Shown piece by piece: positions 24,896-55,596 of a stretch of 64,000 nt of DNA. This stretch comes from Halorubrum depositum (lineage in GTDB: Archaea > Halobacteriota > Halobacteria > Halobacteriales > Haloferacaceae), in contig NZ_VCNM01000002.1 in the NCBI RefSeq assembly GCF_007671725.1, positions 310,001 through 374,000 on the forward strand, written 5' to 3'. Below the pieces are notes generated by a model, which did no database searches, was not told the origin of the DNA, and saw nothing but the letters and a program-made list of their open reading frames with translations. Made by a program: the position numbers and the translations under genes. Every line of letters starts with the position of its first letter. Within the stretch, counting starts at the first letter, position 1.

Positions 24896-24970
24896 GGGCG
24901 CTTAGCTCAGTCTGGATAGAGTGCTTGGCTTCGGACCAAGTTGCCGCGGGTTCAAATCCTGCAGCGCCCA
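24896..24970 (+). tRNA. tRNA-Arg (anticodon TCG)
   Basis: A 75-nt cloverleaf: acceptor stem GGGCGCT/AGCGCCC, anticodon stem CTTGG/CCAAG around the loop cttcgga (anticodon TCG), and a T arm with loop TTCAAAT, discriminator A. No CCA is encoded. Its last bases are the integration target of the element that follows: the 19 bp at 24953-24971 recur at 55578-55596. The tRNA is left complete at this junction, so the integrant restores a functional 3' end. Confidence 0.95.
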
Positions 24971-26785: not shown

Positions 26786-28687
26786 ATGCCGGTCGAGGCA
26801 ACTCCGGAGACGGAGAGTGTTCGTGATATACTTCCACGGTTGAATAATTCGCTTTTCATCCCATGCCTCCAGCGGGATTACTGCTGGAAACAAAAACAGA
26901 TCAAGATGCTATGGGACTCTTTGCTCCGAGGCCTGCCGTTGGGTTCTCTCCTCATCTGGGAAGACGAGGGTGACGGAGTGCGGACAGAACCCGCATACTC
27001 ATTTATTCAACACTATGTCGATGAACGAGCATATTCGTGGGACGATGGTCCACAACGGTACAGCCAGCGATTCAACTTCGAAGAACTCCCCGACTCTTAT
27101 TCGCTGGTGCTCGACGGCCAACAGCGGCTCACATCCTTCTATCTGAGTCTGATGGGGAGCTTCACGACTCGCAAACACGGCGGATGGAAGAGCAATCGAG
27201 GAGCGTGGAATCAACGGGAATTGCACTTTGATCTGTTGTCGGGCGATAAGACCGAAGACCACGACCGAGATCTCGTGTATGACTTTGATTTCCGAAAAGG
27301 GAGAGGGCTGAGCGAGTCCGGTGATAGTTACTGGTTCCCAGTCAATGAGCTTGTGACTGATTCGGATTCTCTGACTTCTGAGTCGTTTGTCGAGAAAGAG
27401 ACGCTACTGGAAGAGAAGCTCCCCGAGATACAGAGCAAAGTCGAAGCAGATGCAGTTCCGAAGGTCGAAAAGAACTTAGAACGTCTCTGGTGGGGCGTCA
27501 ATCAGCGTGAGGCAATTCTCTACGAGACGACTCACACAGACGAAAGAACAGCCCGTGAGCTATTCATACGTCGAAACAAAGCGGGAAAAGTTCTGAGCGG
27601 GGTGGATATTCTTCTCGCTCTTCTTACTGGCTACTGGGAGCGAGTAGATGACGAGAGCAAACCAACGGATGCAAAAAAGCAGATTGAGAGGTTCACCGAG
27701 AAACTCTCGGCAAATGAGGAACTATCCGACTACGGGTTCACGTTCGGGAAGAACTTCGTACTCCGGACTCTCCTACTGTTCGCCGACGAACGCCCGGCAT
27801 TTCGTAAGGATGGACGATATGACGGTGACCGACTGAGAGAGGCTGAAAACATCTTCCAAGACGAGGAGTTTGAGCAGGCGATCATTGACACCTTCCAGCT
27901 TTCATCGGAAATTGGATTCCACAGCGGAGCGCTTTCCAGTAAAAACGTTGTGACACCAGTCATCCAGTACCTCTACGAAAAGGATACGCCTGCTACATCA
28001 CAGGATCGCCAGTCGATCCACTACTGGTTAACTACGACTGTCCTGAATAGCGTATTTGGAAACATCGGGTCTGAGAGGGTGCTGAAGACTGCCCGAGGAC
28101 ACATACGGGAATCGGGAACTGATAGCTTCCCGGCGACCGAGATATTGAACGACCTTCGAGGAAGTGGCGCAGTCATACGATTGGATAACGAGGTACTGGA
28201 CGAGCTACTGGACGAGGTAGATTATCGGTCAGGGTCTCGCCGGAACGTACTCCTCACCCACCTCTACGATGACCGTCGAGCAGGGTACAAGAGATACGAG
28301 GTTGACCATATCTTCCCACGAGGCAAATTAGGTGACGAGGAGTTCCTCCTTGACCAAGGGGTAGATCCGGAACAGATTGATTGGTACAAGGAGAATAGAG
28401 ATCACCTCGCTAATCTCCAACTCCTTAGTGCCGAAAACGGGGAGAATCAGTCAAAGAGTGATCGAGATTTGACTGACTGGCTAGACCGACTCGATGAAGA
28501 TAAGGTAGATTCCGTTGCAAGCAGAGAGGACTACTTCAATCAGCACCGGGTCCCATCTGATCCGAGTCTACACGAGTACGAGAATTATCCAGAGTTTCTG
28601 AACAAGCGCCTCGAATTGATTAGAGAACGATTAGAGGAAGAACTCCCAGTTAAAGAGGTAGAAGAGCCGGCGACAGTCTCTATGTGA
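26786..28687 (+). CDS. GmrSD-type type IV restriction-like protein (DUF262 + DUF1524)
   Basis: A 633-residue single-chain protein. The N-terminal DUF262 domain has FIPCLQRDYCWKQKQIKMLW near residue 25 and the nucleotide-binding DGQQRLTSFYL motif at about 110-120. The C-terminal DUF1524 domain has the HNH-like YEVDHIFPRGKL near 505-516 and NLQLLSAENGENQSKSD near 547. In GmrSD such domains restrict phage DNA carrying modified (glucosylated) cytosines, powered by NTP hydrolysis. Fused single chains are common in defence islands. Target in this host is unknown. Confidence 0.92.
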   Translation: MPVEATPETESVRDILPRLNNSLFIPCLQRDYCWKQKQIKMLWDSLLRGLPLGSLLIWEDEGDGVRTEPAYSFIQHYVDERAYSWDDGPQRYSQRFNFEELPDSYSLVLDGQQRLTSFYLSLMGSFTTRKHGGWKSNRGAWNQRELHFDLLSGDKTEDHDRDLVYDFDFRKGRGLSESGDSYWFPVNELVTDSDSLTSESFVEKETLLEEKLPEIQSKVEADAVPKVEKNLERLWWGVNQREAILYETTHTDERTARELFIRRNKAGKVLSGVDILLALLTGYWERVDDESKPTDAKKQIERFTEKLSANEELSDYGFTFGKNFVLRTLLLFADERPAFRKDGRYDGDRLREAENIFQDEEFEQAIIDTFQLSSEIGFHSGALSSKNVVTPVIQYLYEKDTPATSQDRQSIHYWLTTTVLNSVFGNIGSERVLKTARGHIRESGTDSFPATEILNDLRGSGAVIRLDNEVLDELLDEVDYRSGSRRNVLLTHLYDDRRAGYKRYEVDHIFPRGKLGDEEFLLDQGVDPEQIDWYKENRDHLANLQLLSAENGENQSKSDRDLTDWLDRLDEDKVDSVASREDYFNQHRVPSDPSLHEYENYPEFLNKRLELIRERLEEELPVKEVEEPATVSM

Positions 28688-28985: not shown

Positions 28986-29801
28986 CTACCCAACGAGTCC
29001 AGACTTGTAATCATCTGGGTCATCAGAAAGCTCATTTAATCGTGTCTGTGGAATGCGCAGAGAGAACTCCGTATTGCCGGCTGATTTCTCAGAAATCCCC
29101 GAGACATAACCTTCCAGCGGCTCATCTTTGACGACTCTGGTAGTCCCGACAAAATTCGCACCAGAATACGTAAGCCCGTTATCTTCGACCGTCATTTCCA
29201 CGGCTCTAATCCCTCTGTCATGTGGAGTGCCTTCTGTTCTCCATTCTTTGACGGTCACCTTTGACCCCTTAGAAATATCTGCTAGATCGTCCAAGGTAAC
29301 GCCAACATCGACTCTTTTGGCGTTATCAGATTCATTGGATAAGGTTCCTCCCGTGTTGGTGCCGGCGGAATCAATCGAAGAAAAGATTTCAGCGGTAACT
29401 TCATCCACATTGTCTTCTGTAATCTGAATGCCGATAGTTCCTGCCAAAGTAGGACTCTCTTCTCTCAATTCCTCGAAGCTCATTTTGTGTAAAACCGGAA
29501 TGAGAACATTATCATCGGAGTTGTTGTGCATCTGAACCACCCCACCTAATTCAAACTGGGACATTCCCTCGAAATACGAGGGAGAGATGATAAGCACGGC
29601 GTGGTCGGACTCGCTCAATGCTTTGTCGATAGATTCTCGAATATCATCCCCAAGGTCGAGTTCTACATCGTCATACCAGACCTCAAGACCATATGCAGTC
29701 AGTTCTTGATATAGCTCCTCTGCGATGCTCTTAGAGTCGGCGTGAGCATAGGAGATCATAACATCCGGACTTGATTCAGATCTGTCTGTGTCGGGAGCCA
29801 T
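28986..29801 (-). CDS. TIR-domain protein with beta-rich C-terminal domain
   Basis: A 271-residue protein. The TIR domain spans about residues 12-130: DVMISYAHADSKSIAEEL, GLEVWYDDVELDLGDDIRE, AVLIISPSYFEGM and the SQFELGG segment whose glutamate (E84) is in the position of the catalytic NADase glutamate. After a linker (about 135-155), a beta-rich domain (VTLDDLADISKGSKVTVKEW and onward) has no family I recognise. Bacterial and archaeal TIR proteins deplete NAD or make signal nucleotides during infection. No ThsA-like partner is nearby. Confidence 0.85.
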   Translation of the reverse strand: MAPDTDRSESSPDVMISYAHADSKSIAEELYQELTAYGLEVWYDDVELDLGDDIRESIDKALSESDHAVLIISPSYFEGMSQFELGGVVQMHNNSDDNVLIPVLHKMSFEELREESPTLAGTIGIQITEDNVDEVTAEIFSSIDSAGTNTGGTLSNESDNAKRVDVGVTLDDLADISKGSKVTVKEWRTEGTPHDRGIRAVEMTVEDNGLTYSGANFVGTTRVVKDEPLEGYVSGISEKSAGNTEFSLRIPQTRLNELSDDPDDYKSGLVG

Positions 29802-30237: not shown

Positions 30238-33200
30238 TCAGATATTGCCCCACACCTCTTCGACCTGATCCAGATCGGTGATTGCTATGACTCTATACCC
30301 CATTCGCTTGAGCTTCGTTCGCTTGTGTTCGTCATCTTCTTTGACGTAATCCTTCTCGTGAGCAGGCCCATCGACGAATACTGCTATAGAGCTGCCGGGC
30401 CGTTCATAGAAGAAATCCGGCTTTGTGACCGGCTCGTCGCCGTCATAGATGACCTTTTGAGCTTCATCGGGAAGCTCGAAGCCTTGATCTCGAATAGCGT
30501 GAAGCACCTCACTCTCGAAGCTGGATTCGCAGGCTTCCAGTAGCTCATCAAAGTTCTCGCCACCCCCATTTTCACTCGGACCAGCCACTTCCGTCAGGGT
30601 CGCAGTTTCCATATTTCCTAACCACGAATCAACGAGCGTTCTGTCGAGGAACTCGTGCTCCGGCTGGTTGTAGAAGGATAGGAGACATTCATAACACGCT
30701 CGCTCACAACCATCGTCATCGGGATCCCCGTGTAGGACGGTCTGTGCCTCCCGAACTGCTTTTCTGAAGCGTGCTTCGTCCATTAGCGAATGAAGCACAC
30801 CTGCGCCACCCTCACTGGTTTCGTAGATTACGATGGTGACCTGTCCGTGTTCCCCTGTCGCTGGTTTCACGAACGTGTCGATCTCTTCCTCGTCCAGATC
30901 GAACGCAACCAGAATTCCCTGATAGACGGTCTCCTTTAGGGTTCGATAGAATTCTTCAGTCTGCTCAGGCTCAAGATCGCTGGGGAGTGGCGTTGTCAGT
31001 GTCACCGTGTCGTGCTGTCCCTCAGAGAACAACTCTATCTCACGCTTGATCGCTTCCTCTGACGCATTAGCATAGCAATCAGGATCGTCTTCGTCGACGT
31101 GACTCTCGATTTGGTCCTCGCTAGTCAGCCAGCGGTTACACTCCATACAGAGGGCGAATCCGTTGAGGTCGTCTTCGTCAGCATCTCGAAGCCCGCTATT
31201 GACCAAGACAATATTCGCACTTCCCTCGTAGGTGACTCGGGCCTCAATCCCATTACCTTCTAACTCGTATGCTTGGGGATCAGACCGTTCGTAGTAGCTA
31301 TTGATGTCGTAGCCCTGTCGACGGCGTTCCTCCTCGTCGCTGGTGATGTACTCTTCTGGTCGAGCGTGTTGGTTCGGGAGTTCCATCGCATTCGGATTCG
31401 GATGGGTCCCATCGAAGGCTGTCTCACAGGAGGGACACGCTGCGGCCTCCTGAGCATCCTCTCCCATCAGGATGGTCTCGCACTCCGGACAGACACGGAG
31501 ATGTCGAGTGACTGGCTCCGAATCCTTCGTCCGGGGACGGGCATACCGAACAGCAAACCGCTCTCCAGCGTAGTAAACGTGATTTCCGGGGGCGAATTCG
31601 CTGATAGCCCGTGTCTGATCCCGCTGAATATCGTCCTCTCGGGAAGTGAACGTCAGAGTCGTACTTTGTCTGGGGAATCCGTAGTTCGGCAGGAATCCCT
31701 GTGAGCGGAGGTACTGATAAGTGTAGAAGCGTTTCTTCCCCGAACGCATATCCTCAAGCCGGTCTTCGATAGCGTTGCGCTCGATCCGGTCCTGATACGA
31801 TCCTCCTTCTGTGGCGAGGAGTTGGTTCAAGCGCCGCAATTCACGGCTCAGGCGGGTGTACTCACGTCGCCACGGTTCGAACGCTTCATCGAGATTCTCG
31901 ACGAAGTTGTCCACCTGGCGCTCGATGAAGGCGTCGGTGAACCACTCCCCGACGGTATCCTGCTCACGCTCACGGGCGAACGCTTGCTTCACCGCTTGAA
32001 TGATCTTCTGTCTGTTGTTCTTGACGGCATTCTCCAGATCTGCCCGATAATCGGGCATAATCTCGTAGTCGCTTCCCTCCTCGATGACCAGCATCTGGCG
32101 GGGCTTGCTTTGGAATTTCAGTTCGATCTGTTCGAGAACGAGAGCGTTGATATGCGCCTCAACCAGATCCTGATTGTTGAGCAGGAACGTCGGCGGGCTG
32201 ATCTCCCCAGCGATAATCCGTTCCGGATTTCGGTAGAAATACTGGTCGTGGGAGCCACGTCCGAACCCACGGCCACAGAACGTCGTGACGAGTGACGGCT
32301 GGTTTTGTCGCCCGGCTCGCCCGGAACGTTGGGCGTAGTTACTCGGGTTCGGCGGGACGTTTCGCATATAGACGTTCGAGAGGTCACCGATGTCGATCCC
32401 GAGTTCCATCGTCGGCGTCGAGACGATGGTGTTCACCTTCTCGCCTTCTCGGAAGTCCGACTCCAGTTGCTTCCGTTTCTCGTTCTCAACCTGACCGCTG
32501 TGTTCGCCGGCGATGATGTCGACGGCGTCGTCGAACGACTCGGTATAGAGATCGTAGAAGTAGGACGATTCGAGATCCGTCTCCTCGGGCGTGATCGAGT
32601 CGCAGCTGTAGTTCAGACAGACGTCGAGTTCATCCCGAGTCGTCGGTGTTCCACACTTCGGGCAGACTCGCACGTCCTCGGGATCGGCGTGCGTGACCCG
32701 AATCGCACTGTGGTTGAGCATATACACCTTCCCGGTGTACTTCAGCGACTCCTGCGTCAACAGCTTGAGTACCTCGTCGTCGCTGATGAGGTCGATGACG
32801 CTGTTGATGATCGCTTTCGCAGTATCGGTGTCGACGTCTAACGCACGGGCTGTCCAACGGACGTGTCGAGAGCGGGGGTGTGTGAGTCGACGGACACGGT
32901 GTCTCCCACTAGTACTTGCCGTGTCGCTGTAGCCAACCGGGAAGTTGAAGAACTCCTGCCCGTGGAAATGGACCTCTTCGTCGAGTTGGTTGATGACATT
33001 CCGCTTGAAGTCGGCGAAGTTCGTGGTGCTCTCGTGGTCTATCGCAATACTCCGGCGGAAGATGTCCAAGAAGCCGTGAACGTACTCCTCCCGCACCGTC
33101 GGATCTGCATTCGAAAGCACGGGGATCGAGTCCCAGACATCGTCGACGTCCGCAAGCTTATCGAGGTTCTCGTATTCGACATCGATCAGCCCGACGTCTT

Positions 33201-35541
33201 CGAGGCTCTGCTGGGTGCGTTGCTGTTCACGACCGAGTTCGAGAATGACGTTGAAAAGCAGGTAGTCGCTGTAGTTCTGACGGTCCTCTGCCGATGGCCC
33301 GAACATTCCCGTGTCGATGGCTGGCGGAAGGGCTTCCTCGTCACCGAGGAGGTCGAAGACGTCGTTCCCGAGCGTGGTGAGGCTAACGTCGTCGCCCTCT
33401 GCGAGGGTATGATACAGCGAGCGTCTGAATCGAACCCGCTGGTAGAGGTTATTCAAGTGAGCCGCCTGTAACGCAGTATCCTGTCGATTGTCAGAGAAGG
33501 CGATAGTCTTCTGCTGGTTATCGGGCAGATTCCGCATCGTGTTTCCGATGAGAACGTCCGTCGCCGTCGAACGACCGACCGTCCCGAACGTGAACAGCTT
33601 GTTGAACTCGTTCTTGACCCGACGAGTGTAATGAACCCCGCAGTTCGGGCAGAACAGGAACGGCTGGTTGACTCGCATCACCTCGACGCCTTGCGCAGCG
33701 AAGCATCCACATTCGAGCTGCCCCTGTTCCACTCGTCCGGGGGTAAGCTGGTCGCACTCCGGGCAGTAGGTAGCTGGTCGGGGTTCAGCCTCGACATAGG
33801 TGTCTCGAAGCTGCCCGTTGTCATTCAGCCACTCATCGGGGAGTGGAGCGGTTTCTCGGTCCCAATCGCCCCGCATCAGGTACGCCTCCTCTTCGTCTTC
33901 CTCCGTGTCTACGAAGGTACTCAGCGCACCCTGTGTGACAGTGTTCTCTTGATCGACGACCGTGGTGTAGTACTCCTGACCGCATCCCCGACAGAACGAG
34001 AGCGGGTAGGCAGTCCGGGTACGGTCGTGTTCTTGGGCGCACGTACGACACTCGATGTCGCCGGCGTCACTCAGATGAGGATCGTCGTCCTCGAAGGACT
34101 CCTCGGTGAGACAGGAGACGAGACCACTCCCCTGACTGAAGAAGGTGTGGAGCTTCGGGATGAAGATCGGCTGTTCTTCACCCTGTATCTCGGTCGTTCC
34201 AACCGTTCCAACGAGCAGAGCAGCCTGTAGTTCCTGCTCGATGTCGTACCGAGATGCGTCGGGCCGGTACTGTTCCTGATAGCTACTGACGAGGTCCTTC
34301 CCGTCTTCGCTTTCGTCATCCTCACCGGCGAAGATCTGCTGGCTCTGAGAGCTAAGCTCTTCGTCGAGGAACTTGATCGTGGGGTGATCCTCCAGCGCAT
34401 TCCCGAGTGCCGACGCATCGGTCGTCTCGGCTGGCATCAGATCCCGGTCGAGGAGCTTCTCGGTAAGGTCCTGTGCGGCTTCGAGACTCCCGTCGAAGGT
34501 TACGATGTCCTCCTCGATGACCTCGATGTCGTTCGGGAGCGGTTCGTCGTCGGAGAGGGGTAGCGGATAGTGAGACTCTCGAACGACGTTGTCAGCGTCG
34601 ACCTCCTCGCCGAATATCTTCCCGGTGAACTCGGCGATCTCGTCGTTGGCATTGATTCCCTCGTCGCTCTGGACCGTCGCAGAGGTACCTACACAGACGA
34701 GTTCTTCTCCGGCGTCGGTATTCTGCTTCAGTCGGCGGACGAGTGCGGCGACATCGGCTCCCTGATGACCGGTGTAGGTGTGAATCTCGTCGAGGACCAG
34801 ATACTGTAATACTCCCTCGTGCATCTCTGGGAAGAGCTTCTTGTCGTCATGCCTGGTAAGGATGAGGTCGAGCATGACGTAGTTCGTCATCAGGATGTCC
34901 GGCGGATCGTTCTGCATCTCCTCCCGAGAGACGACTTCGGAGTCGAAGGCCTCCTCACGGCCGAATTGCCGGAGGAACTCAGGTGCTTCGTCAGGGTTGT
35001 GTGGCGTGTCGCCCGTGTAGAGTCCCAGCCGGAGGCCCGTCTCGTCGAGCCGCTCTGCGAAGTCCTCGTACTGGGAGTTCGCCAGAGCGTTCATCGGATA
35101 GATGATGACCGCCTTGATCCCGTCCTCACCCTGCTCTTTGGCTTCGAGACAATGGCTGACGATTGGAATCCCGAATGCGAAGCTCTTCCCTGATCCCGTA
35201 CCCGTGGAGACGATGGTGTTGTTCCCAGCTTGGATAGACTGAATTGCTTCGGTCTGGTGTTTGTACGGTTCGATGGGATCGCCGCCAGCCCCGGTGAACA
35301 CGTCCAGAATACCCTCGTGGAGCTTATCGTCCGCAACGAACTCTTCGAGGGTATCACCGTACTGGAAGCGCTGATTCAGTTGGACGAACGGCTCCTTCCA
35401 CAGTACCTTCCCCGTCTCAATGCGGTTCTCGATCCAAGCGTTGATCGTCTCGTCGTCGACGTTCTGGAACGTCTCGACGTAGGAGCGATAGGAGGATTGG
35501 ACGTTATCGAGGGCGTCGAAAGGATTGAGACGAGTGGCCAT
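30238..35541 (-). CDS. Giant DEAD/DEAH helicase with DUF1998 and nuclease-like C-terminus (DrmA/DrmB- or DruE-like)
   Basis: A 1767-residue protein. Walker A is TGTGSGKS (113-120), motif II DEIH (251-254), motif III GTSAT near 284, and motif VI YAQRSGRAGR near 1110. Several CxxC zinc knuckles lie between the lobes (CRTCAQEHD, CPECDQLTPG, CPNCGVHYTRR, CPKCGTPT). The DUF1998 domain near 1585-1680 has YETSEGGAGVLHSLM and CERACYECLLSFYNQPEHEFLD. The final about 75 residues (KPDFFYE, AVFVDGPAHEKDYV, GYRVIAI) look like a PD-(D/E)xK/Vsr-type fold. In DISARM, DrmA and DrmB carry these helicase and DUF1998 parts on two chains; Druantia DruE is one chain. The role is DNA translocation on invading DNA. 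Confidence 0.88.
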   Translation of the reverse strand: MATRLNPFDALDNVQSSYRSYVETFQNVDDETINAWIENRIETGKVLWKEPFVQLNQRFQYGDTLEEFVADDKLHEGILDVFTGAGGDPIEPYKHQTEAIQSIQAGNNTIVSTGTGSGKSFAFGIPIVSHCLEAKEQGEDGIKAVIIYPMNALANSQYEDFAERLDETGLRLGLYTGDTPHNPDEAPEFLRQFGREEAFDSEVVSREEMQNDPPDILMTNYVMLDLILTRHDDKKLFPEMHEGVLQYLVLDEIHTYTGHQGADVAALVRRLKQNTDAGEELVCVGTSATVQSDEGINANDEIAEFTGKIFGEEVDADNVVRESHYPLPLSDDEPLPNDIEVIEEDIVTFDGSLEAAQDLTEKLLDRDLMPAETTDASALGNALEDHPTIKFLDEELSSQSQQIFAGEDDESEDGKDLVSSYQEQYRPDASRYDIEQELQAALLVGTVGTTEIQGEEQPIFIPKLHTFFSQGSGLVSCLTEESFEDDDPHLSDAGDIECRTCAQEHDRTRTAYPLSFCRGCGQEYYTTVVDQENTVTQGALSTFVDTEEDEEEAYLMRGDWDRETAPLPDEWLNDNGQLRDTYVEAEPRPATYCPECDQLTPGRVEQGQLECGCFAAQGVEVMRVNQPFLFCPNCGVHYTRRVKNEFNKLFTFGTVGRSTATDVLIGNTMRNLPDNQQKTIAFSDNRQDTALQAAHLNNLYQRVRFRRSLYHTLAEGDDVSLTTLGNDVFDLLGDEEALPPAIDTGMFGPSAEDRQNYSDYLLFNVILELGREQQRTQQSLEDVGLIDVEYENLDKLADVDDVWDSIPVLSNADPTVREEYVHGFLDIFRRSIAIDHESTTNFADFKRNVINQLDEEVHFHGQEFFNFPVGYSDTASTSGRHRVRRLTHPRSRHVRWTARALDVDTDTAKAIINSVIDLISDDEVLKLLTQESLKYTGKVYMLNHSAIRVTHADPEDVRVCPKCGTPTTRDELDVCLNYSCDSITPEETDLESSYFYDLYTESFDDAVDIIAGEHSGQVENEKRKQLESDFREGEKVNTIVSTPTMELGIDIGDLSNVYMRNVPPNPSNYAQRSGRAGRQNQPSLVTTFCGRGFGRGSHDQYFYRNPERIIAGEISPPTFLLNNQDLVEAHINALVLEQIELKFQSKPRQMLVIEEGSDYEIMPDYRADLENAVKNNRQKIIQAVKQAFAREREQDTVGEWFTDAFIERQVDNFVENLDEAFEPWRREYTRLSRELRRLNQLLATEGGSYQDRIERNAIEDRLEDMRSGKKRFYTYQYLRSQGFLPNYGFPRQSTTLTFTSREDDIQRDQTRAISEFAPGNHVYYAGERFAVRYARPRTKDSEPVTRHLRVCPECETILMGEDAQEAAACPSCETAFDGTHPNPNAMELPNQHARPEEYITSDEEERRRQGYDINSYYERSDPQAYELEGNGIEARVTYEGSANIVLVNSGLRDADEDDLNGFALCMECNRWLTSEDQIESHVDEDDPDCYANASEEAIKREIELFSEGQHDTVTLTTPLPSDLEPEQTEEFYRTLKETVYQGILVAFDLDEEEIDTFVKPATGEHGQVTIVIYETSEGGAGVLHSLMDEARFRKAVREAQTVLHGDPDDDGCERACYECLLSFYNQPEHEFLDRTLVDSWLGNMETATLTEVAGPSENGGGENFDELLEACESSFESEVLHAIRDQGFELPDEAQKVIYDGDEPVTKPDFFYERPGSSIAVFVDGPAHEKDYVKEDDEHKRTKLKRMGYRVIAITDLDQVEEVWGNI

Positions 35542-35584
35542 TACATTGTCAGATGGCCAAGTGCGACAAAATGCTTGTGCTGAA

Positions 35585-36148
35585 TTAGTCTCTAAATCCC
35601 CATTCTGCTAACTTCGCTATGAAATCCTGAAATGACTTATTTGCTGCCTCAATTGTGGTAACTCCCATAATAACTACTTTCCCACTAGCGAAGACAAGAG
35701 AGACCGATTCAGAATCCTTACCTCTATAAATTAATCCCGGAAATTGCTCAGGTTCATATTCAACCTGTTCAAGACCTGCAGCAATCGCTAAGTGTGTTAA
35801 ATCCAACTGGTGGTCTAATTCACCAACACACACTATATTCTTAATTTCGAGCGTAGGGGGTTCTCGGATTGCCGGCCTCATAGCATCTTTAACAAGCTCT
35901 ACAAGTTGGTCTAATCGCTCAAATGAGCTACAACCAACCAATGCACAGGATCCAGATCGGTAGAAAGCTACGTATTTTGAATCCCCACTAAATTCAAATT
36001 TAGTTTGGAGCCAATGGTTTTCCTCGGGGGAGTAATTTACTTCAAGCACCTTGTTAGACGATTCTAACAAATCGCAGACAGCGGCCAAGTCTAGTTCCCT
36101 ATGGAAATCGAGTATCCCGACAATATTCGCTATCTCAACATCAGTCAC
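35585..36148 (-). CDS. Divergent TATA-binding protein paralogue 1, upstream of the giant helicase
   Basis: A 187-residue protein with the two-repeat TBP saddle. Repeat 2 (about residues 97-187) is clear: LEIKNIVCVGELDHQLDLTH, VEYEPEQFPGLIYR, SLVFASGKVVIMG. Repeat 1 has the same layout (VEIANIVGILDFHRELDLAA, SPEENHWLQ, VAFYRSGSCALVG), but the two positions where TBP inserts phenylalanines between base steps read N and Y. Both phenylalanines of repeat 2 remain. Starts with GTG at 36148. The stop is 43 bp before the helicase start, same strand, so it looks like the first gene of that unit. Confidence 0.82.
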   Translation of the reverse strand: MTDVEIANIVGILDFHRELDLAAVCDLLESSNKVLEVNYSPEENHWLQTKFEFSGDSKYVAFYRSGSCALVGCSSFERLDQLVELVKDAMRPAIREPPTLEIKNIVCVGELDHQLDLTHLAIAAGLEQVEYEPEQFPGLIYRGKDSESVSLVFASGKVVIMGVTTIEAANKSFQDFIAKLAEWGFRD

Positions 36149-36396
36149 GTACTTATTGTCTATTACGAATCCAGGAGTAATTGATGTTGCTTCTTCTCGA
36201 CAGGGGAACTACCTGTTCGATGATCTCCCAAGTACCTCTATTGACGACTGGTAATCAAAATCTTCGCAATACAAAAGAGTCAGGTCACTCCGTCCTAAAT
36301 GGGATACAACTAATGGATCCGGGGGCTGATGAAACTTGCCAAGTAAACGGTGTGGTTTATCGAGCCCATTTATGTATATATAAGTGTATTGTCCAG
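36149..36396. promoter_or_regulatory. Divergent control region between TBP genes 1 and 2
   Basis: An AT-rich gap of 248 bp between the divergent starts at 36148 and 36397. It includes tttatgtatatataa (36369-36383), a strong TATA-like run just upstream of the TBP-2 start and close to leaderless spacing. A plus-strand frame is open through this gap from 36181 but has no TBP-like content before 36397, so I treat the gap as regulatory. Confidence 0.5.
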
Positions 36397-36897
36397 ATGG
36401 ATCCAACAACATTAGAGAAGCTTGATGGTTTTGAACGGAACCAGTCCGGTTATAAATTTGTCCCGGAGGATACAAACGTCCGTCTAACCCTGCTCGGGAA
36501 TGATTGGTCTGAAAAGCGAATTCTAGTATATGGTACTAACTCCTCTGAAACGGCAATCGAGTATGTTGAAACTTTGATCCAAAGAGTCAGGGAGATAGGT
36601 CATGATGCCAAACTAATAGGAGATATAGAAATCTCGAATATATCTGTTAACGGGGATTTTGGAGAACCTCTCCGATTAGAGCGAGCTGTACAAGACCTAC
36701 GAAAAGAAGAGATAGATGTTCAGTATGAACCGGAGCAATTCCCAGCAATAATTGTCAAACTAGAAAACCCCGCAACCACATTTCTATTGTTCTCAAACGG
36801 AAAGTTCTCTATACAAGGGCTCAAGAAAAGAGAATGTATCGAGCCAAGAATTATCGAACTTAAAGAAATATTGGAACAAACTTCGACCAATCTATAA
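36397..36897 (+). CDS. Divergent TATA-binding protein paralogue 2
   Basis: 166 residues. Repeat 2 is recognisable: DIEISNISVNGDFGEPLRLE, VQYEPEQFPAIIVKL, FLLFSNGKFSIQG, with both intercalating phenylalanines present. Repeat 1 is short and degenerate: its first strand is missing, the EQFPG place reads RNQSG, and the second Phe place reads L (TLLGND). It begins at the ATG at 36397 behind a TATA-like run; the open frame from 36181 has no TBP similarity. It is divergent from TBP-1 and followed 106 bp later by TBP-3. Confidence 0.75.
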   Translation: MDPTTLEKLDGFERNQSGYKFVPEDTNVRLTLLGNDWSEKRILVYGTNSSETAIEYVETLIQRVREIGHDAKLIGDIEISNISVNGDFGEPLRLERAVQDLRKEEIDVQYEPEQFPAIIVKLENPATTFLLFSNGKFSIQGLKKRECIEPRIIELKEILEQTSTNL

Positions 36898-37003
36898 TGT
36901 ATCTACTTAATAGAAATTTGTCCGGTGACCTTAGAACTATCCTGAGTAAAAGTCAGTCGTTTAAGCAGGATATGTTTTATACCGAGATCAAATCTGGTAC
37001 CCA

Positions 37004-37552
37004 ATGATCGAGATCGTTAATGTTGTTGGAGGCGGCGGTTTCAAAATAGATCTAGATCTTCATAAAATCGCATCTAAGTCCTCTCTTATCGATATGGATT
37101 ATGAACCGGAAATACATTCGGGGTTTAAATTCAAGTTTGATGAAGATGGTCCAACAGTTATGTTATTCAGTTCTGGCAATTTCCATATTACTGGTGCTAA
37201 ATCTGTTGAAGAATTATACCAAACACATACGGAGCTAAAAACATATATAGAGGGCATTAGTGACGAGAACGATTTAGATTATCAGGCTGATTGTGAAGTC
37301 CGAAATATTGTAGCTGTGAATGAGTATTCATCTAAACTAGACTTAGAGACATTATCAGATGCGCTTGAAGAGTCCGATTATAACCCAGAAGATATGCCTG
37401 CTATTCGTTTTTCAATTGGACCAAACTATGGCACTTTTCTAATATATAGAACCGGGAAAGTGATTTACACAGGGGACTCTGATCTGAAGAATATTTCTAG
37501 TGCGTTTGATGATTTATTCAAAATATTTGATGAATTATTCAATAGTACTTAG
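37004..37552 (+). CDS. Divergent TATA-binding protein paralogue 3
   Basis: 182 residues with both TBP repeats: MIEIVNVVGGGGFKIDLDLH, DYEPEIHSGFKF, VMLFSSGNFHITGAK, then CEVRNIVAVNEYSSKLDLE, YNPEDMPAIRF, FLIYRTGKVIYTG. Three of the four DNA-kinking phenylalanine places are changed (H, M and Y); only LFSSG keeps its Phe. ttttata at 36974-36980 lies 24-30 bp before the ATG, fitting leaderless transcription. The last 18 bp overlap the 3' end of the methyltransferase gene on the other strand. Confidence 0.8.
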   Translation: MIEIVNVVGGGGFKIDLDLHKIASKSSLIDMDYEPEIHSGFKFKFDEDGPTVMLFSSGNFHITGAKSVEELYQTHTELKTYIEGISDENDLDYQADCEVRNIVAVNEYSSKLDLETLSDALEESDYNPEDMPAIRFSIGPNYGTFLIYRTGKVIYTGDSDLKNISSAFDDLFKIFDELFNST

Positions 37553-40500
37553 TTTATCAAATTCTCTGAGACAATTCTTCTTACTTCGGAATTCACCGAA
37601 TTCGTCCGATTCTTTATCTTTGAGAACTCTGAATTCGTTCAGGATGAATTCAAACTCACCACTGGATAAGCCATAGATCTTGGCAATAGCTGCATCAATC
37701 TCTGCACGGTGCTGACGTCGCTCTTCATCATCCCAAATGAAAGGACCTTCAAAGTTGGTTTCTTGTCCAAGGGAATCAAGACTGTGGGAGGTCCAGGTGA
37801 GCTTTACACCTCTCTCGTAGAGATAGTCCCAAGTGTTGATTTTCTCCCCCTCTTTCTCCAGTGTGGTGTTTTTAACCGTTTCAGGAGAGGGCATGGGGAG
37901 CTGTTTGAGGATGTATAAGTTTAGATTTGCACCGCCAATGGACTGGCGTAAAGTGAAATCAAAAGCAAAAGATGTGAAAAGTGATGTAAATACCATAGCT
38001 TTCTCTACTGAGGGATCATCGAAGGTGAGAACGGGGGCGCTGTTGCCACAGGGGTAACAGGGAATGATTGTTCCAACGGATGTTCTGAAGTCTGTATGGG
38101 AACGGGCAACATTTCTGAAGGCAAATATCCAATCTTGTTCCCACTCAATGTTTTCTAATTCTTGATTAAATTCTTCCTTGTTCAACCAATATCGTGGAAA
38201 TGTCTCTACATGCGGATCCTTCTTCTCTTCTGCCAACAATTTTCTAGTTTCGGCCTTTGTTCCAAACCTGTTTTCTTTGTCAACCCCATCGAAGCTACCG
38301 AATCGGTGATCAAATTGGTTAAATAGCTTCCCTTCAAAAAACGGAAGATATTCTTCACCTTCGCCAACAAAATGATTTAATTCATTTAGATTAAAGTCTT
38401 GCTTTAGAGTTTCTAAAGTATTGTCTTCAAATAGCTCAGAATCAAGGGTCATATCAAATAATCTATGGTAGGTGATCCCCCAAGGATTGGAATTTTCAGA
38501 CTCATTAATCAGAACTGGTAGCCCAGTATACATTTCTATAGCTATATCTTTGACCAGAGTATTCCGAAAAGTAGGACATGTTTTGGTGTTAGGATTTATA
38601 CGAATTATCTCATCAGGAGACAAATAATATCGCCGTTCAGAATCACGTACCATCTCTACATTTTTATTGAAAAACGAAAATCTAACCTTATCTACCGATA
38701 TCTGACTACCAACAAGGGTGAGAAGACAGAAGCGCTCATTCTTCTCGACATCGGCGAAAATACCCTCCGTATTTTCGAAGTCAAATAGAGAATCGATCCG
38801 ATTATTTTCGATTAAGTAGGAAAAGAAATCGGCATTCCCCTTGTCTGTCGCAACTCCTGTCTTGACAACCATACCCATTCTACCCTTCGGATCCAATATA
38901 TCGACACCTGCTAATTCGGTGAAAATTGGATACGTATTTAATTCACCAGAACCAGACAAGGGATATCTTCCCGAACTTCGGATGAATTCAGAGGTACTGG
39001 ATATAGATTTCTTATAATTTTCCCATTTAGTATAGAGATCCTCATCAGTATCTTCTAATTCGTTTATGAGTCGACTTCTACTACGCTTTGCATCTGTAGT
39101 GGCAATTTTCTCATTTTTCCCGGCAAACCACTGTTTCTCTTCTGGTTTTATTTTATCCCAGGGGGGATTACCGAGCACGCAGTCAAACCCGGATTCAGAG
39201 TTGTAAAATATCTCCGGGAACTCAAGTTCCCAGTGGAAGAACCGTTGCTGTTCTGCGATCTTCGTAGCTCGTTCTATCAGATCCTGAAGTGCGCCATCAT
39301 TCGGATTCGGATTCCGGCGAACCTTTTCGATGGTGGATGGAGATGGATATTCTTTCGTAGAGCCATCCATAGGCCAGTAAAACGCTGCTGTCCAGATATC
39401 GTACGCTAGCTTCTCTTGTTGGTACGCTTCTGACTGTTGGAGTTCGTTGTACAGCTCCCTCTTTTTCTCGATATCTTCAGTATCCTCCTCATCAATCTCA
39501 TCGAGTCGTTCGGCGATATCCACGTACTCCTCTTTGCCCGCACCCCATTGTTGTAGCGACGACTCGGAGGAACCCTTAGACCGTTCCTTGTTTTCGTTCC
39601 TGACCCGCTTCCGGATCTCGTTTCCGACGTGCCAGTCACGCCCACCGGACGTTTCATAGGCATCCACGGGGAATTCCCCTTCGAGAAGTTCCGAATTGGT
39701 TCCGATCAGGGAATTTCCGCATTTGATGTGATGGTCGAGGAAATTCAGCGGTTTATCCTCCACGGCGGAGTTGATCCACAGACTAACCTTTGCCAGTTCA
39801 ACGGCCATCGGATTGAGGTCAACGGCATAGATGCAATGCTGCAGGACATCTCGCCGTGCCTCACGTATCTGGTCTTCAGGGGGATAGTCGCTGTCAGATC
39901 GAATGCGTGCGAGTCGCTGTGCGAGGAAGTTGTTGGCGGCGATCAGGAACGCACCGCTCCCACTCGCTGGGTCACAGACTCTGATGTCGAGGAGAGCGTC
40001 TTCCTGCTCCTCAGTCTTGGTAGCGTCTTCGAGACGATCCTCGACGACAGGGTTGAGCGCACTTTGAACGAGTTCTCGAACCAGTCCCGGATCCGTGTAG
40101 TAGCTCCCTGTCTCCTTCCGATCGGTTCCACGGTCGTCGAGATAGAACTCTCCCCGGGAAACTGTCCGATTCTCTAGCTCAATTACTTCGGTCGCTAGTT
40201 TGGGTGTGAATTCTAACAGACTCTCGTAGACGGAGCCAATCTCCTCGACACCGAGATCGGCGTACGAGATGCGCTGGCGAGTTCCTTCGTGTTCAATGAG
40301 GGTCAGGTCCTCGATTGCGTCCAAGAGATCGTCGTTAAAACATTCACTCTCAGACACCCATTCGAGCCGATCTGAGTCGAAGAGCATCCCATTGTAGCAG
40401 GGGACACCAAGCTCTTCGTCACCCTTCTCGACGAGGCGGAAGGTGGACTGCAAGCCGTGCCAGAGATCGGTGTTCCGGTCACTCCCGCTTCGGCGTGTTT

Positions 40501-41587
40501 CGGCTTTCTCCCGAAGGTTCGTGATGCTGTACTCGTCGGTGTACAGGCTATCACGGGAAGCCATCATCCCCCGCTGTTCCGCATACATGAGGAAAAGTAG
40601 GCGATACACTAAGAGGAGAACTTCCTGATAGTACTCCTTGGCCTTCTCTTCACCGCCTTCTTCGAGGTATTCCCGAATTTCTTGATTGAGTAGTCCGGTT
40701 CCCAGCGTCTCGATGGCACTTACGACGTTGGACTGGAGGTCTTGACCGACCTTGACTCCAGTAGACAGAGCGACCTGATACAGCTGCTCCAGCGGGGTCT
40801 CGATGTCATCTTCTTCTTCGTCGGCTACGACCGGCTCGATGAACCGTGTAGCGTGGCAGAGCCGGTAGAGTGCCCGGAAGTCCCCATAGTTCCGGCTCGT
40901 GAACATATTCTCCAGATCGAACTCCACGTACCCACGGGTGTACGTGTGGTAGAAATCTCGAAGGACCCGGAGCGTCAGCCCGTTGGTTACGACGGCCCAG
41001 TCGTGTTCGTCGCTGGCGTTCAGGAACTCCTGGAGCGTATCGTGCGGACTCTTCGTTCCACGGGGAGCATTCTCCGGCTTCTCGTCCAGCTTCTGTTCTG
41101 GTTCGACGGTATGAATAATCGGAGCCGTCCGCCCCTCCATCTCACCGTAGCTTTCGATCTCCCCGTCGGGCCACCCCTTGTGTGAGAGGTTCGCCTCGAT
41201 GCCGCCCGCTTCGAGATTCTCCCGCTGGAAGACCGGTTCGAACCCTATATTCTGGAACAGCTTGAGGATCCACTTCACACGAGCGTCCGAAACGTCCATA
41301 TGGAACAGCGTCTCGTCCATCGTGAGCTCGTCCCACCGCTCTCGAAGCGTGTCCCACGTATCCCCGATCTCCGCTTCGATGTCGGCCTCTTCGGGCGGCT
41401 CTTTGTTCGGTAACGCAAAGGTCTCCGGTCGGACGGCGGACTCCCCGCAATGACGCTGGCGGAGCTTGCTCACCAGTTCGTCCGTGAGCAAACCGCCGCT
41501 GGTGTTGATGAACGTCGTCGATCCGGTTCGTGGCGTACTGGAACTCGATTCGGCTTCGGCGTCGGTAGAGGGTGTATCGATACTCAT
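37535..41587 (-). CDS. drmMI: Eco57I-type adenine DNA methyltransferase (DISARM DrmMI / type IIG-like)
   Basis: A 1350-residue protein. The SAM-binding motif I is VCDPASGSGAFLIAANNFLA near residue 535 and the catalytic motif IV is LGNPPWDKI near 805, defining an N6-adenine methyltransferase of the gamma class. The N-terminal about 480 residues are a long helical part without a PD-(D/E)xK signature I can point to, and the C-terminal about 350 residues match the TaqI-like target-recognition region (WIFAFRNVARSHTDFRTSVG). In class 1 DISARM this protein marks self DNA. It starts 2 bp behind the SNF2 gene stop, so the two are one operon. Confidence 0.85.
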   Translation of the reverse strand: MSIDTPSTDAEAESSSSTPRTGSTTFINTSGGLLTDELVSKLRQRHCGESAVRPETFALPNKEPPEEADIEAEIGDTWDTLRERWDELTMDETLFHMDVSDARVKWILKLFQNIGFEPVFQRENLEAGGIEANLSHKGWPDGEIESYGEMEGRTAPIIHTVEPEQKLDEKPENAPRGTKSPHDTLQEFLNASDEHDWAVVTNGLTLRVLRDFYHTYTRGYVEFDLENMFTSRNYGDFRALYRLCHATRFIEPVVADEEEDDIETPLEQLYQVALSTGVKVGQDLQSNVVSAIETLGTGLLNQEIREYLEEGGEEKAKEYYQEVLLLVYRLLFLMYAEQRGMMASRDSLYTDEYSITNLREKAETRRSGSDRNTDLWHGLQSTFRLVEKGDEELGVPCYNGMLFDSDRLEWVSESECFNDDLLDAIEDLTLIEHEGTRQRISYADLGVEEIGSVYESLLEFTPKLATEVIELENRTVSRGEFYLDDRGTDRKETGSYYTDPGLVRELVQSALNPVVEDRLEDATKTEEQEDALLDIRVCDPASGSGAFLIAANNFLAQRLARIRSDSDYPPEDQIREARRDVLQHCIYAVDLNPMAVELAKVSLWINSAVEDKPLNFLDHHIKCGNSLIGTNSELLEGEFPVDAYETSGGRDWHVGNEIRKRVRNENKERSKGSSESSLQQWGAGKEEYVDIAERLDEIDEEDTEDIEKKRELYNELQQSEAYQQEKLAYDIWTAAFYWPMDGSTKEYPSPSTIEKVRRNPNPNDGALQDLIERATKIAEQQRFFHWELEFPEIFYNSESGFDCVLGNPPWDKIKPEEKQWFAGKNEKIATTDAKRSRSRLINELEDTDEDLYTKWENYKKSISSTSEFIRSSGRYPLSGSGELNTYPIFTELAGVDILDPKGRMGMVVKTGVATDKGNADFFSYLIENNRIDSLFDFENTEGIFADVEKNERFCLLTLVGSQISVDKVRFSFFNKNVEMVRDSERRYYLSPDEIIRINPNTKTCPTFRNTLVKDIAIEMYTGLPVLINESENSNPWGITYHRLFDMTLDSELFEDNTLETLKQDFNLNELNHFVGEGEEYLPFFEGKLFNQFDHRFGSFDGVDKENRFGTKAETRKLLAEEKKDPHVETFPRYWLNKEEFNQELENIEWEQDWIFAFRNVARSHTDFRTSVGTIIPCYPCGNSAPVLTFDDPSVEKAMVFTSLFTSFAFDFTLRQSIGGANLNLYILKQLPMPSPETVKNTTLEKEGEKINTWDYLYERGVKLTWTSHSLDSLGQETNFEGPFIWDDEERRQHRAEIDAAIAKIYGLSSGEFEFILNEFRVLKDKESDEFGEFRSKKNCLREFDKLSTIE

Positions 41588-54458: not shown

Positions 54459-55475
54459 TCAGGAAGAGTCGAAGTATTGCCTTCGTTGTTTCATTTTTTG
54501 AATTTCTGTCCGCTCATCGTAGTGTTGTTCAATAACCTCTTCCGATGAGTTAACCCTGTCAGAAACGGCTCGTGGCGGAGTATCGTTTTGTAGCCACGAT
54601 GTAATTGCCCCCCGACGGACTGCGTGCGGGGAACGAGAGGACGGACATTGGTATGGTTTGTCGTAGTTATTTGCTTCACAAGTTTCGGGGTCTCGTCCGT
54701 GGGGGCAATCGGCCCCAATGCTGCAAGGTTGCGTGTAGATATACGTCCATTTCCGCAACGTAGTCGTATGCGGTCGCCCGTGTGCTGTTGCTATAAGCGG
54801 GGCTCGCCCGGAGTCGTCGGTTACGTTGTGGCGTTGGTCTTCGATATAGTCGTTCAGCACCGCACAGGTCTCGGATGATAGAGATATGTAGCGTTCACCA
54901 GCTTGTTTGTTCTTCAGCCCGGTTCCGGTTTCGGGACGGTGGCGAGGGTGTATGTACTGGCCCTCTGAATCGTAGTCGTCGACATCTAGTGCGTGGATTG
55001 CTCCAACCCGCATTCCCGTCCGCCACATCAGTATCAGGGTTACGTGCTTGTTGGTGGCGTAATCGTATTTATCGACATATGAGAGAATTTTCTCTGCTAC
55101 TTCTTTGTCCAGCATCTCGTCCTTGCTGTTTTCTTCTTTGGTAATGTTTGGAGAGAGGACGGATTCTGAGAGGTCTTCGGTAACTGCGTCTATCCGTTCG
55201 CAGAATCGAATGAAGACTCTGAGCGTGTCCATCTGGGTCTTGAGGGTTACTTTGTTGATGTCTTCTCCACGCCAGAGTTTGTAGCGGTGAAGGTCCCGAC
55301 CTGTTAGGTCGTTCAGGTTCTGGATTCCTTCGGAGTCGCACCATTCGATGAAGTGTGAGAGTCGGGAGTCGTGGCTATAGACTGTCCATTCGGTGCATTC
55401 TCTACCTTTTTCTTGTAGGTACATTTGCACCGCTGTCTGGGGTTCGATGTTTTCAAGTTCTTTGGTGGTTGACAT
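54459..55475 (-). CDS. Tyrosine recombinase (integrase) of the integrated element
   Basis: A 338-residue tyrosine recombinase. The SAM-like core-binding domain spans about 10-95. The catalytic residues are R156 (WRTGMRVGAIHALD), the H284xxR287 box (SPHAVRRGA), and the nucleophile Y319 (VIEQHYDER). An insertion with four cysteines (CSIGADCPHGRDPETC near 251-266, and C277) may bind zinc. It lies about 100 bp from the right attachment site, oriented so that its stop faces the element's interior, and should catalyse both integration at and excision from the tRNA-Arg gene. Confidence 0.93.
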   Translation of the reverse strand: MSTTKELENIEPQTAVQMYLQEKGRECTEWTVYSHDSRLSHFIEWCDSEGIQNLNDLTGRDLHRYKLWRGEDINKVTLKTQMDTLRVFIRFCERIDAVTEDLSESVLSPNITKEENSKDEMLDKEVAEKILSYVDKYDYATNKHVTLILMWRTGMRVGAIHALDVDDYDSEGQYIHPRHRPETGTGLKNKQAGERYISLSSETCAVLNDYIEDQRHNVTDDSGRAPLIATAHGRPHTTTLRKWTYIYTQPCSIGADCPHGRDPETCEANNYDKPYQCPSSRSPHAVRRGAITSWLQNDTPPRAVSDRVNSSEEVIEQHYDERTEIQKMKQRRQYFDSS

Positions 55476-55577
55476 TTTTGGGTTCCTCTGTCAACCGATA
55501 CCCTGAGCGTTACCCGTGGCGCTTGGTCCCTTTGGGTGGTTTTGGCTTTCGACCTTTCCGTGCGGTCGGGTTCGTTC

Positions 55578-55596
55578 CAAATCCTGCAGCGCCCAT
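55578..55596. repeat. Right attachment site (attR)
   Basis: The 19-bp caaatcctgcagcgcccat repeats the tRNA-Arg 3' end (24953-24971) exactly. It marks the boundary to the right backbone. Confidence 0.9.

Follow-up and report, generated by a model that had tools for sequence, protein, structure and literature searches.

C proteins are small DNA-binding regulators that are carried by a restriction module and are often encoded directly upstream of its restriction gene. They have an HTH (Xre-type) fold whereas the proteins studied here have the fold of a general transcription factor, the TATA-binding protein (TBP), and the analogy between them is one of function only. In archaeal as well as eukaryotic TBPs the C-terminal stirrup contacts TFB, and the Phe pair of repeat 2 kinks DNA.

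Among antiviral systems the closest description is that of ARMADA Type I (Bell 2025, PMC12458937), which shares with the present locus a BrxHII-like helicase, a PglX-like methyltransferase and a YprA-like helicase in the archaeal order, and of which TBPs are not described as a part. The same paper reports TBPs in TALON, shared with TOTE. There, as here, they are found beside defence genes, in TALON together with an ARMADA-like helicase, but TALON is largely confined to Chloroflexota and has a NERD nuclease, a TPR-CSD protein and RNase H-fold domains, none of which was found here. The view, taken when the locus was first read, that no defence system was known to include TBPs is therefore not supported. 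Becker 2014 (PMC4230888) described the loss of residues in haloarchaeal TbpC, of which the N-terminal Phe pair is lost and the C-terminal pair kept, and left its function open; that paper treats TbpC simply as a paralogue whose function is unknown or has been lost, and mentions neither restriction nor defence. In haloarchaeal BREX-5 a TBP, annotated as TBP-C, is found within the operon (L161, L162 and L165). A search for TBP as a BREX component returned nothing from the searchable literature, although an earlier mention in the original BREX paper is possible, and TBPs go unmentioned in two surveys of haloarchaeal restriction systems and in one of archaeal immunity. No prior report of an association between altered TBPs and defence modules was found in the searchable literature. 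Here we explore such an association, starting from a stretch of 64,000 nucleotides of Halorubrum depositum (contig NZ_VCNM01000002.1), hereafter the window.

A defence cassette in a tRNA-bounded island

The window is a segment of a haloarchaeal chromosome. It contains an island of low GC, about 30.6 kb long (24971-55595), inside which the defence cassette is located. The island is bounded by a tRNA gene and a direct repeat of the 3' end of that gene, and its features are as follows.

24896-24970, + strand: tRNA-Arg(tcg), left island end (attachment site)
26786-28687: GmrSD-like nuclease gene, inside the island
28986-29801: TIR gene, inside the island
30238-35541, - strand: YprA-like helicase, 1767 aa, DEAD/Helicase_C and MZB/DUF1998 (Pfam); best PADLOC match DruE
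35542-35584, - strand: leader of the helicase gene, with ATTTTGT at about -31 to -25
35585-36148, - strand: TBP-1, TbpC-type, 187 aa; Pfam TBP 105.9 bits, 9.7e-31
36313-36897, + strand: TBP-2, 194 aa from ATG 36313, in an ORF of 36181-36897; Pfam TBP 61.7 bits, 5.9e-17
37004-37552, + strand: TBP-3, 182 aa; Pfam TBP 109.6 bits, 6.6e-32
37535-41587, - strand: PglX/DrmMI-type Eco57I adenine methyltransferase, 1350 aa
41590-44466, - strand: BrxHII/DrmD-type SNF2 helicase, 958 aa
53231-54379: GTPase gene, inside the island
54459-55475: integrase gene, adjoining the right-end repeat
55575-55595, + strand: direct repeat, matching the 3' end of the tRNA in 19 of 21 bases (chance expectation 0.00), right island end

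Of ARMADA Type I, DISARM and Druantia, the first fits the cassette best. Its YprA-like helicase and DUF1998/MZB region are in one chain (DEAD, Helicase_C and MZB within 30238-35541), at the C-terminus of which a weak Vsr-like MTES_1575 match (residues 1675-1756, E 0.0017) falls below the Pfam cut-off. The helicase is preceded by BrxHII/RapA-like and PglX-like genes with DrmD and DrmMI matches, which is the archaeal ARMADA order, and the succession of DrmD, methyltransferase and helicase is kept in other haloarchaeal ARMADA loci. DISARM class 1 needs a separate drmB (DUF1998) and drmC (PLD), but here MZB is fused to the helicase, and no PLD gene was found among the scanned cassette genes of the window. 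As for Druantia, the helicase is DruE-like, yet its companions are DrmMI and DrmD rather than Druantia's own genes. TALON was likewise rejected: TBPs are present, but the NERD nuclease, TPR-CSD protein and RNase H-fold helicase are absent from the scanned cassette genes. The original label of a DISARM/Druantia-like locus is thus not supported, the defining companions of both systems being missing, and the cassette is best assigned to ARMADA Type I in the sense of PMC12458937.

Three TBPs at the methyltransferase-helicase junction

The gap between the methyltransferase and the YprA/DUF1998 helicase is filled by three TBP genes. The original observation of three TBP frames within 2 kb was accurate in position and arrangement: all three match Pfam TBP (PF00352) far above its cut-off of 22.9 bits, TBP-1 shares the strand of the helicase and ends 43 bp short of its start, and TBP-3 lies tail to tail with the methyltransferase gene and overlaps its 3' end. 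TBP-2 probably starts at ATG 36313 rather than at 36181, since its orthologue in L031 also starts there. The host genome has three further TBPs outside this trio.

The loss of intercalating residues noted at the outset was also found as described, the canonical F-F-F-F being replaced by N-Y-F-F in TBP-1, Q-W-F-F in TBP-2 and H-F-M-Y in TBP-3. The stirrup YEPEQF is retained in TBP-1 and in TBP-2, the latter having lost the DNA-contact residues of repeat 1. TBP-3 retains the N/V/T DNA-contact residues, and its TFB-contact stirrup is altered to YNPED. Structure prediction, proposed at the outset as a check, gave a two-repeat TBP saddle for both TBP-2 and TBP-3 (AlphaFold2 models, Foldseek to PDB TBPs). 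The TBP-3 model has a pLDDT of 91 and a TM of 0.87 to 1AIS; that of TBP-2 has a pLDDT of 86 and a TM of 0.7-0.8 to solved TBPs, its poorly conserved first repeat being partly guided by the canonical TBPs contained in the model alignments. Repeat 2 of TBP-3 scores 50 bits against canonical repeat 1 and 32 bits against canonical repeat 2, and this is the only clear case among the altered TBPs where repeat 2 resembles canonical repeat 1. It is possible that the repeat order is swapped in TBP-3, of which repeat 1 gives no clear assignment.

At the methyltransferase-helicase junction 16 haloarchaeal ARMADA loci were compared. TBPs are found in the gap in six of these, the window and the five loci listed here.

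L029: TBP-1 orthologue, 74%, same place
L030: degraded TBP-3-like copy in the gap
L031: TBP-2 orthologue, 58%, and one degraded TBP
L035: TBP-2-like, 29%, same gap
L041: TBP in the gap, with a helicase that is just 29% identical to that of the window

The linkage of TBPs with defence genes hence recurs, and the worry that the trio might be a peculiarity of this one genome clearly does not apply. The remaining ten loci have no TBP, so the system does not depend on one; their gap is either 27-67 bp or contains other cargo. In L034 (8076-13319) this cargo is a 348-aa protein, an OLD-like ATPase and a GHKL-like 761-aa protein, and in L036 (11306-13510) it is a 734-aa gene on the opposite strand. 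Since other cargo is found in the same gap, the gap acts as an insertion site within the ARMADA operon. The ARMADA locus of Natronococcus sp. A-GB7 (L049, 2029-9971) carries a tandem pair of methyltransferase genes, which share 46% and 50% identity with that of the window. Stretches examined from the rest of the phylum, with ARMADA-like and other YprA loci, contained no TBP.

Among the closest loci, identity is 92-98% for the helicase and DrmD and 90-97% for most of methyltransferase residues 1-700. The C-terminal specificity half of the methyltransferase has been exchanged between loci, with identity down to roughly 28-65%, and the TBPs sit in the exchanged AT-rich block together with this half. 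In the alignment the helicase leader is conserved in the window, L029 and L031 and not in L028 or L030; its conservation thus follows the TBP-bearing close loci with the exception of L030, whose TBP is degraded.

Altered TBPs and defence genes in haloarchaea

One profile was used to list all TBPs of 59 Halobacteriales genomes. Of these, 73 full-length TBPs, comprising the retrievable secondary copies and some sampled primary copies, were examined together with their genomic surroundings. TBPs that lost at least one intercalating Phe of repeat 1 were classified as altered, and a TBP was considered linked when a restriction, BREX or ARMADA gene was present within 5 kb. Linkage was found for 33 of 37 altered TBPs against 0 of 36 four-Phe TBPs (p = 1.2e-16), in a scan whose reference proteins came partly from TBP-linked loci and were applied equally to both Phe classes. 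Without the window 30 of 34 altered TBPs are linked (p = 8e-16); counted per locus the numbers are 28/31 versus 0/35 (p = 1.3e-15). An independent scan of immediate neighbours with Pfam and PADLOC agrees with the census: in Pfam, N6_Mtase was found for 15 and Eco57I for 11 of 64, and neither is listed among 51 control neighbours.

The settings are diverse. Of 14 TBPs viewed on annotated plasmids 13 are defence-linked, being located for instance beside SprT-HsdR-HsdS-HsdM, inside BREX-5 (L161, L162 and L165) or, in L242, between pglX and pglZ of a different BREX operon. The tbpC gene of Halobacterium NRC-1 (L166), like its counterparts in L163 and L241, is translationally coupled behind a methyltransferase-helicase pair, and 4-bp overlaps occur between TBP and methyltransferase-helicase genes. 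Operon orientation within 100 bp applies to 22 of 43 TBPs, and two or three unlike TBPs are present in several other defence loci. In L151 (9047-9922) a TBP of 291 aa, whose N-terminal extension resembles a winged helix, is encoded between an Eco57I/PglX methyltransferase and PglZ. A by-eye search upstream of linked TBP genes established no shared promoter motif, and the window has a single occurrence of the motif upstream of TBP-1.

A quick maximum-likelihood tree unites 50 defence TBPs in a single group (SH-aLRT 95), to which TBP-1, TBP-3, TbpC and the BREX-5 and viral TBPs belong. TBP-1 groups with TbpC of Halobacterium NRC-1, in accordance with its TbpC-type N-Y-F-F pattern, and TBP-3 keeps a single Phe and has a long row in the tree. 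TBP-2 and its relatives form a separate long branch of unsure placement, though with a TbpC-like residue pattern. Type I restriction loci contain close relatives of TBP-1 (support 99) as well as of TBP-2 (support 95), and over the tree the linked system, of which there are five types, switches at least 14 times. No significance could be attained in a test on phylogenetically independent pairs, since the altered TBPs belong for the most part to a single clade. The best-conserved stretch of the defence TBPs is the stirrup EYEPEQFP of repeat 2, which is kept in 89-100%, the Phe positions of repeat 1 being kept in 2% and 18%.

A search with TBP-3 against viral contigs gave no match; viral TBPs were recovered by a later profile search. 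In halovirus HRTV-9 the TBP follows a Type IIG enzyme, in HJTV-2 it is beside an N4 methyltransferase and Eco29kI, and those of IMG/VR contigs L229 and L236 likewise neighbour restriction genes. The TBP of viral contig L236 (5707-12246) is four-Phe-like and abuts a PglX/Eco57I methyltransferase and a DrmD-like helicase. Methyltransferase or restriction neighbours were found for none of 20 TBPs from methanogens and other non-haloarchaea, all of which are four-Phe, and the altered defence-linked TBPs are a haloarchaeal phenomenon in the sample examined. Methanogens and relatives (L248-L252, L254, L255, L258, L260) have a second four-Phe TBP near the gene of an Lhr-type helicase; in the cases read the two genes are arranged tail to tail, and the pairing is conserved across several families.

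Proposed module-borne transcription factors and other readings

The suggestion that the trio consists of specialised, repurposed TBPs is supported, as is the recurrence of their linkage with defence genes. On balance we think it likely that they are members of a family of haloarchaeal TBPs linked to defence, comprising the TbpC-like proteins and the TBP-2 branch, that serve as dedicated transcription factors carried by RM, BREX and ARMADA modules. The stirrup and the Phe pair of repeat 2 are kept among partners that have little more than DNA modification in common, which argues for a role in transcription rather than for one protein partner and favours a module-borne controller. Among the functions first proposed, regulation of the defence operon would fit the retained TFB-contact surface best. 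Each defence TBP would bind TFB and the host RNA polymerase and then direct, time or limit transcription of the linked genes, thereby taking the role that C proteins have in bacterial restriction systems. In the window, the divergent TBPs separate the helicase-nuclease from the methyltransferase and set it behind TBP-1. TBP-1 and the helicase-nuclease would form one transcription unit apart from the methyltransferase, an arrangement that resembles a C-R operon whose M gene stands alone. TBP-2, with its TFB contact, and TBP-3, with its DNA contacts, could be partial antagonists that tune TBP-1 or host TBP, the least certain step of the model. It is quite possible, if less likely than not, that each mobile restriction or antiviral module has a private TBP, here a logic set of three, which reprogrammes host TFB and RNA polymerase onto the module's promoters and so allows timed expression upon entering a new cell. 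Deletion of tbpC in Halobacterium resulted in no apparent phenotype under standard conditions (Coker and DasSarma, PMC2121645), and tbpC transcripts are cited in PMC4230888 as undetected in PHH1; both count against a controller. The operon position described above would equally be expected of a protein subunit.

Such a subunit might sense DNA: it would recognise promoters, or invader DNA that is bent or AT-rich, and recruit the methyltransferase or helicase. The precedent of TOTE and TALON, where in the latter TBPs occur with an ARMADA-like helicase (PMC12458937), points this way, as do the overlapping genes and the exchangeable block shared with the methyltransferase specificity half. We nevertheless regard it as rather unlikely, given that the TBP is missing from most ARMADA loci, that the best-kept surface is the TFB stirrup and that the partners (HsdMSR, BREX, IIG, ARMADA) are unrelated and repeatedly switched. 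The narrower idea that the TBPs mark DNA specifically for the window helicase is weakened by the presence of the clade at Type I restriction, Type IIG and BREX systems without a helicase of this type.

A role directed at virus or host seems less probable still. TBPs of half function that titrate TFB, occupy promoters so that viral or even all transcription is slowed, or monitor viral TBPs would agree with the complementary losses in TBP-2, which retains the TFB contact but not the DNA contacts, and TBP-3, in which the opposite is seen, and with the TBPs that haloviruses carry; the viral TBPs are, however, themselves restriction-linked and placed among the defence TBPs, and it would be left unexplained why modification and restriction genes are the ones linked. 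Finally, surplus paralogues may simply decay in mobile islands where defence genes gather, islands and plasmids being rich in both and degraded copies being present in L030, L031 and L140. This is very improbable in view of dN/dS values of 0.06-0.19 across non-saturated pairs, indicating purifying selection (0.15 for TBP-1, with constraint on both repeats), of a divergent clade with a stable residue pattern, and of the four-Phe TBPs, many of them secondary paralogues, none of which is near RM genes.

Dedicated transcription factors carried by defence modules would offer an explanation for the many TBPs of haloarchaea, and for TbpC, half of whose DNA-bending residues are gone, whose deletion has no phenotype and which is seemingly silent in the laboratory. 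If true, archaea would own a general-transcription-factor counterpart of restriction controller proteins, and this type of TBP would be a marker for finding archaeal defence loci; both consequences are testable in tractable strains such as Halobacterium NRC-1 and Haloferax.
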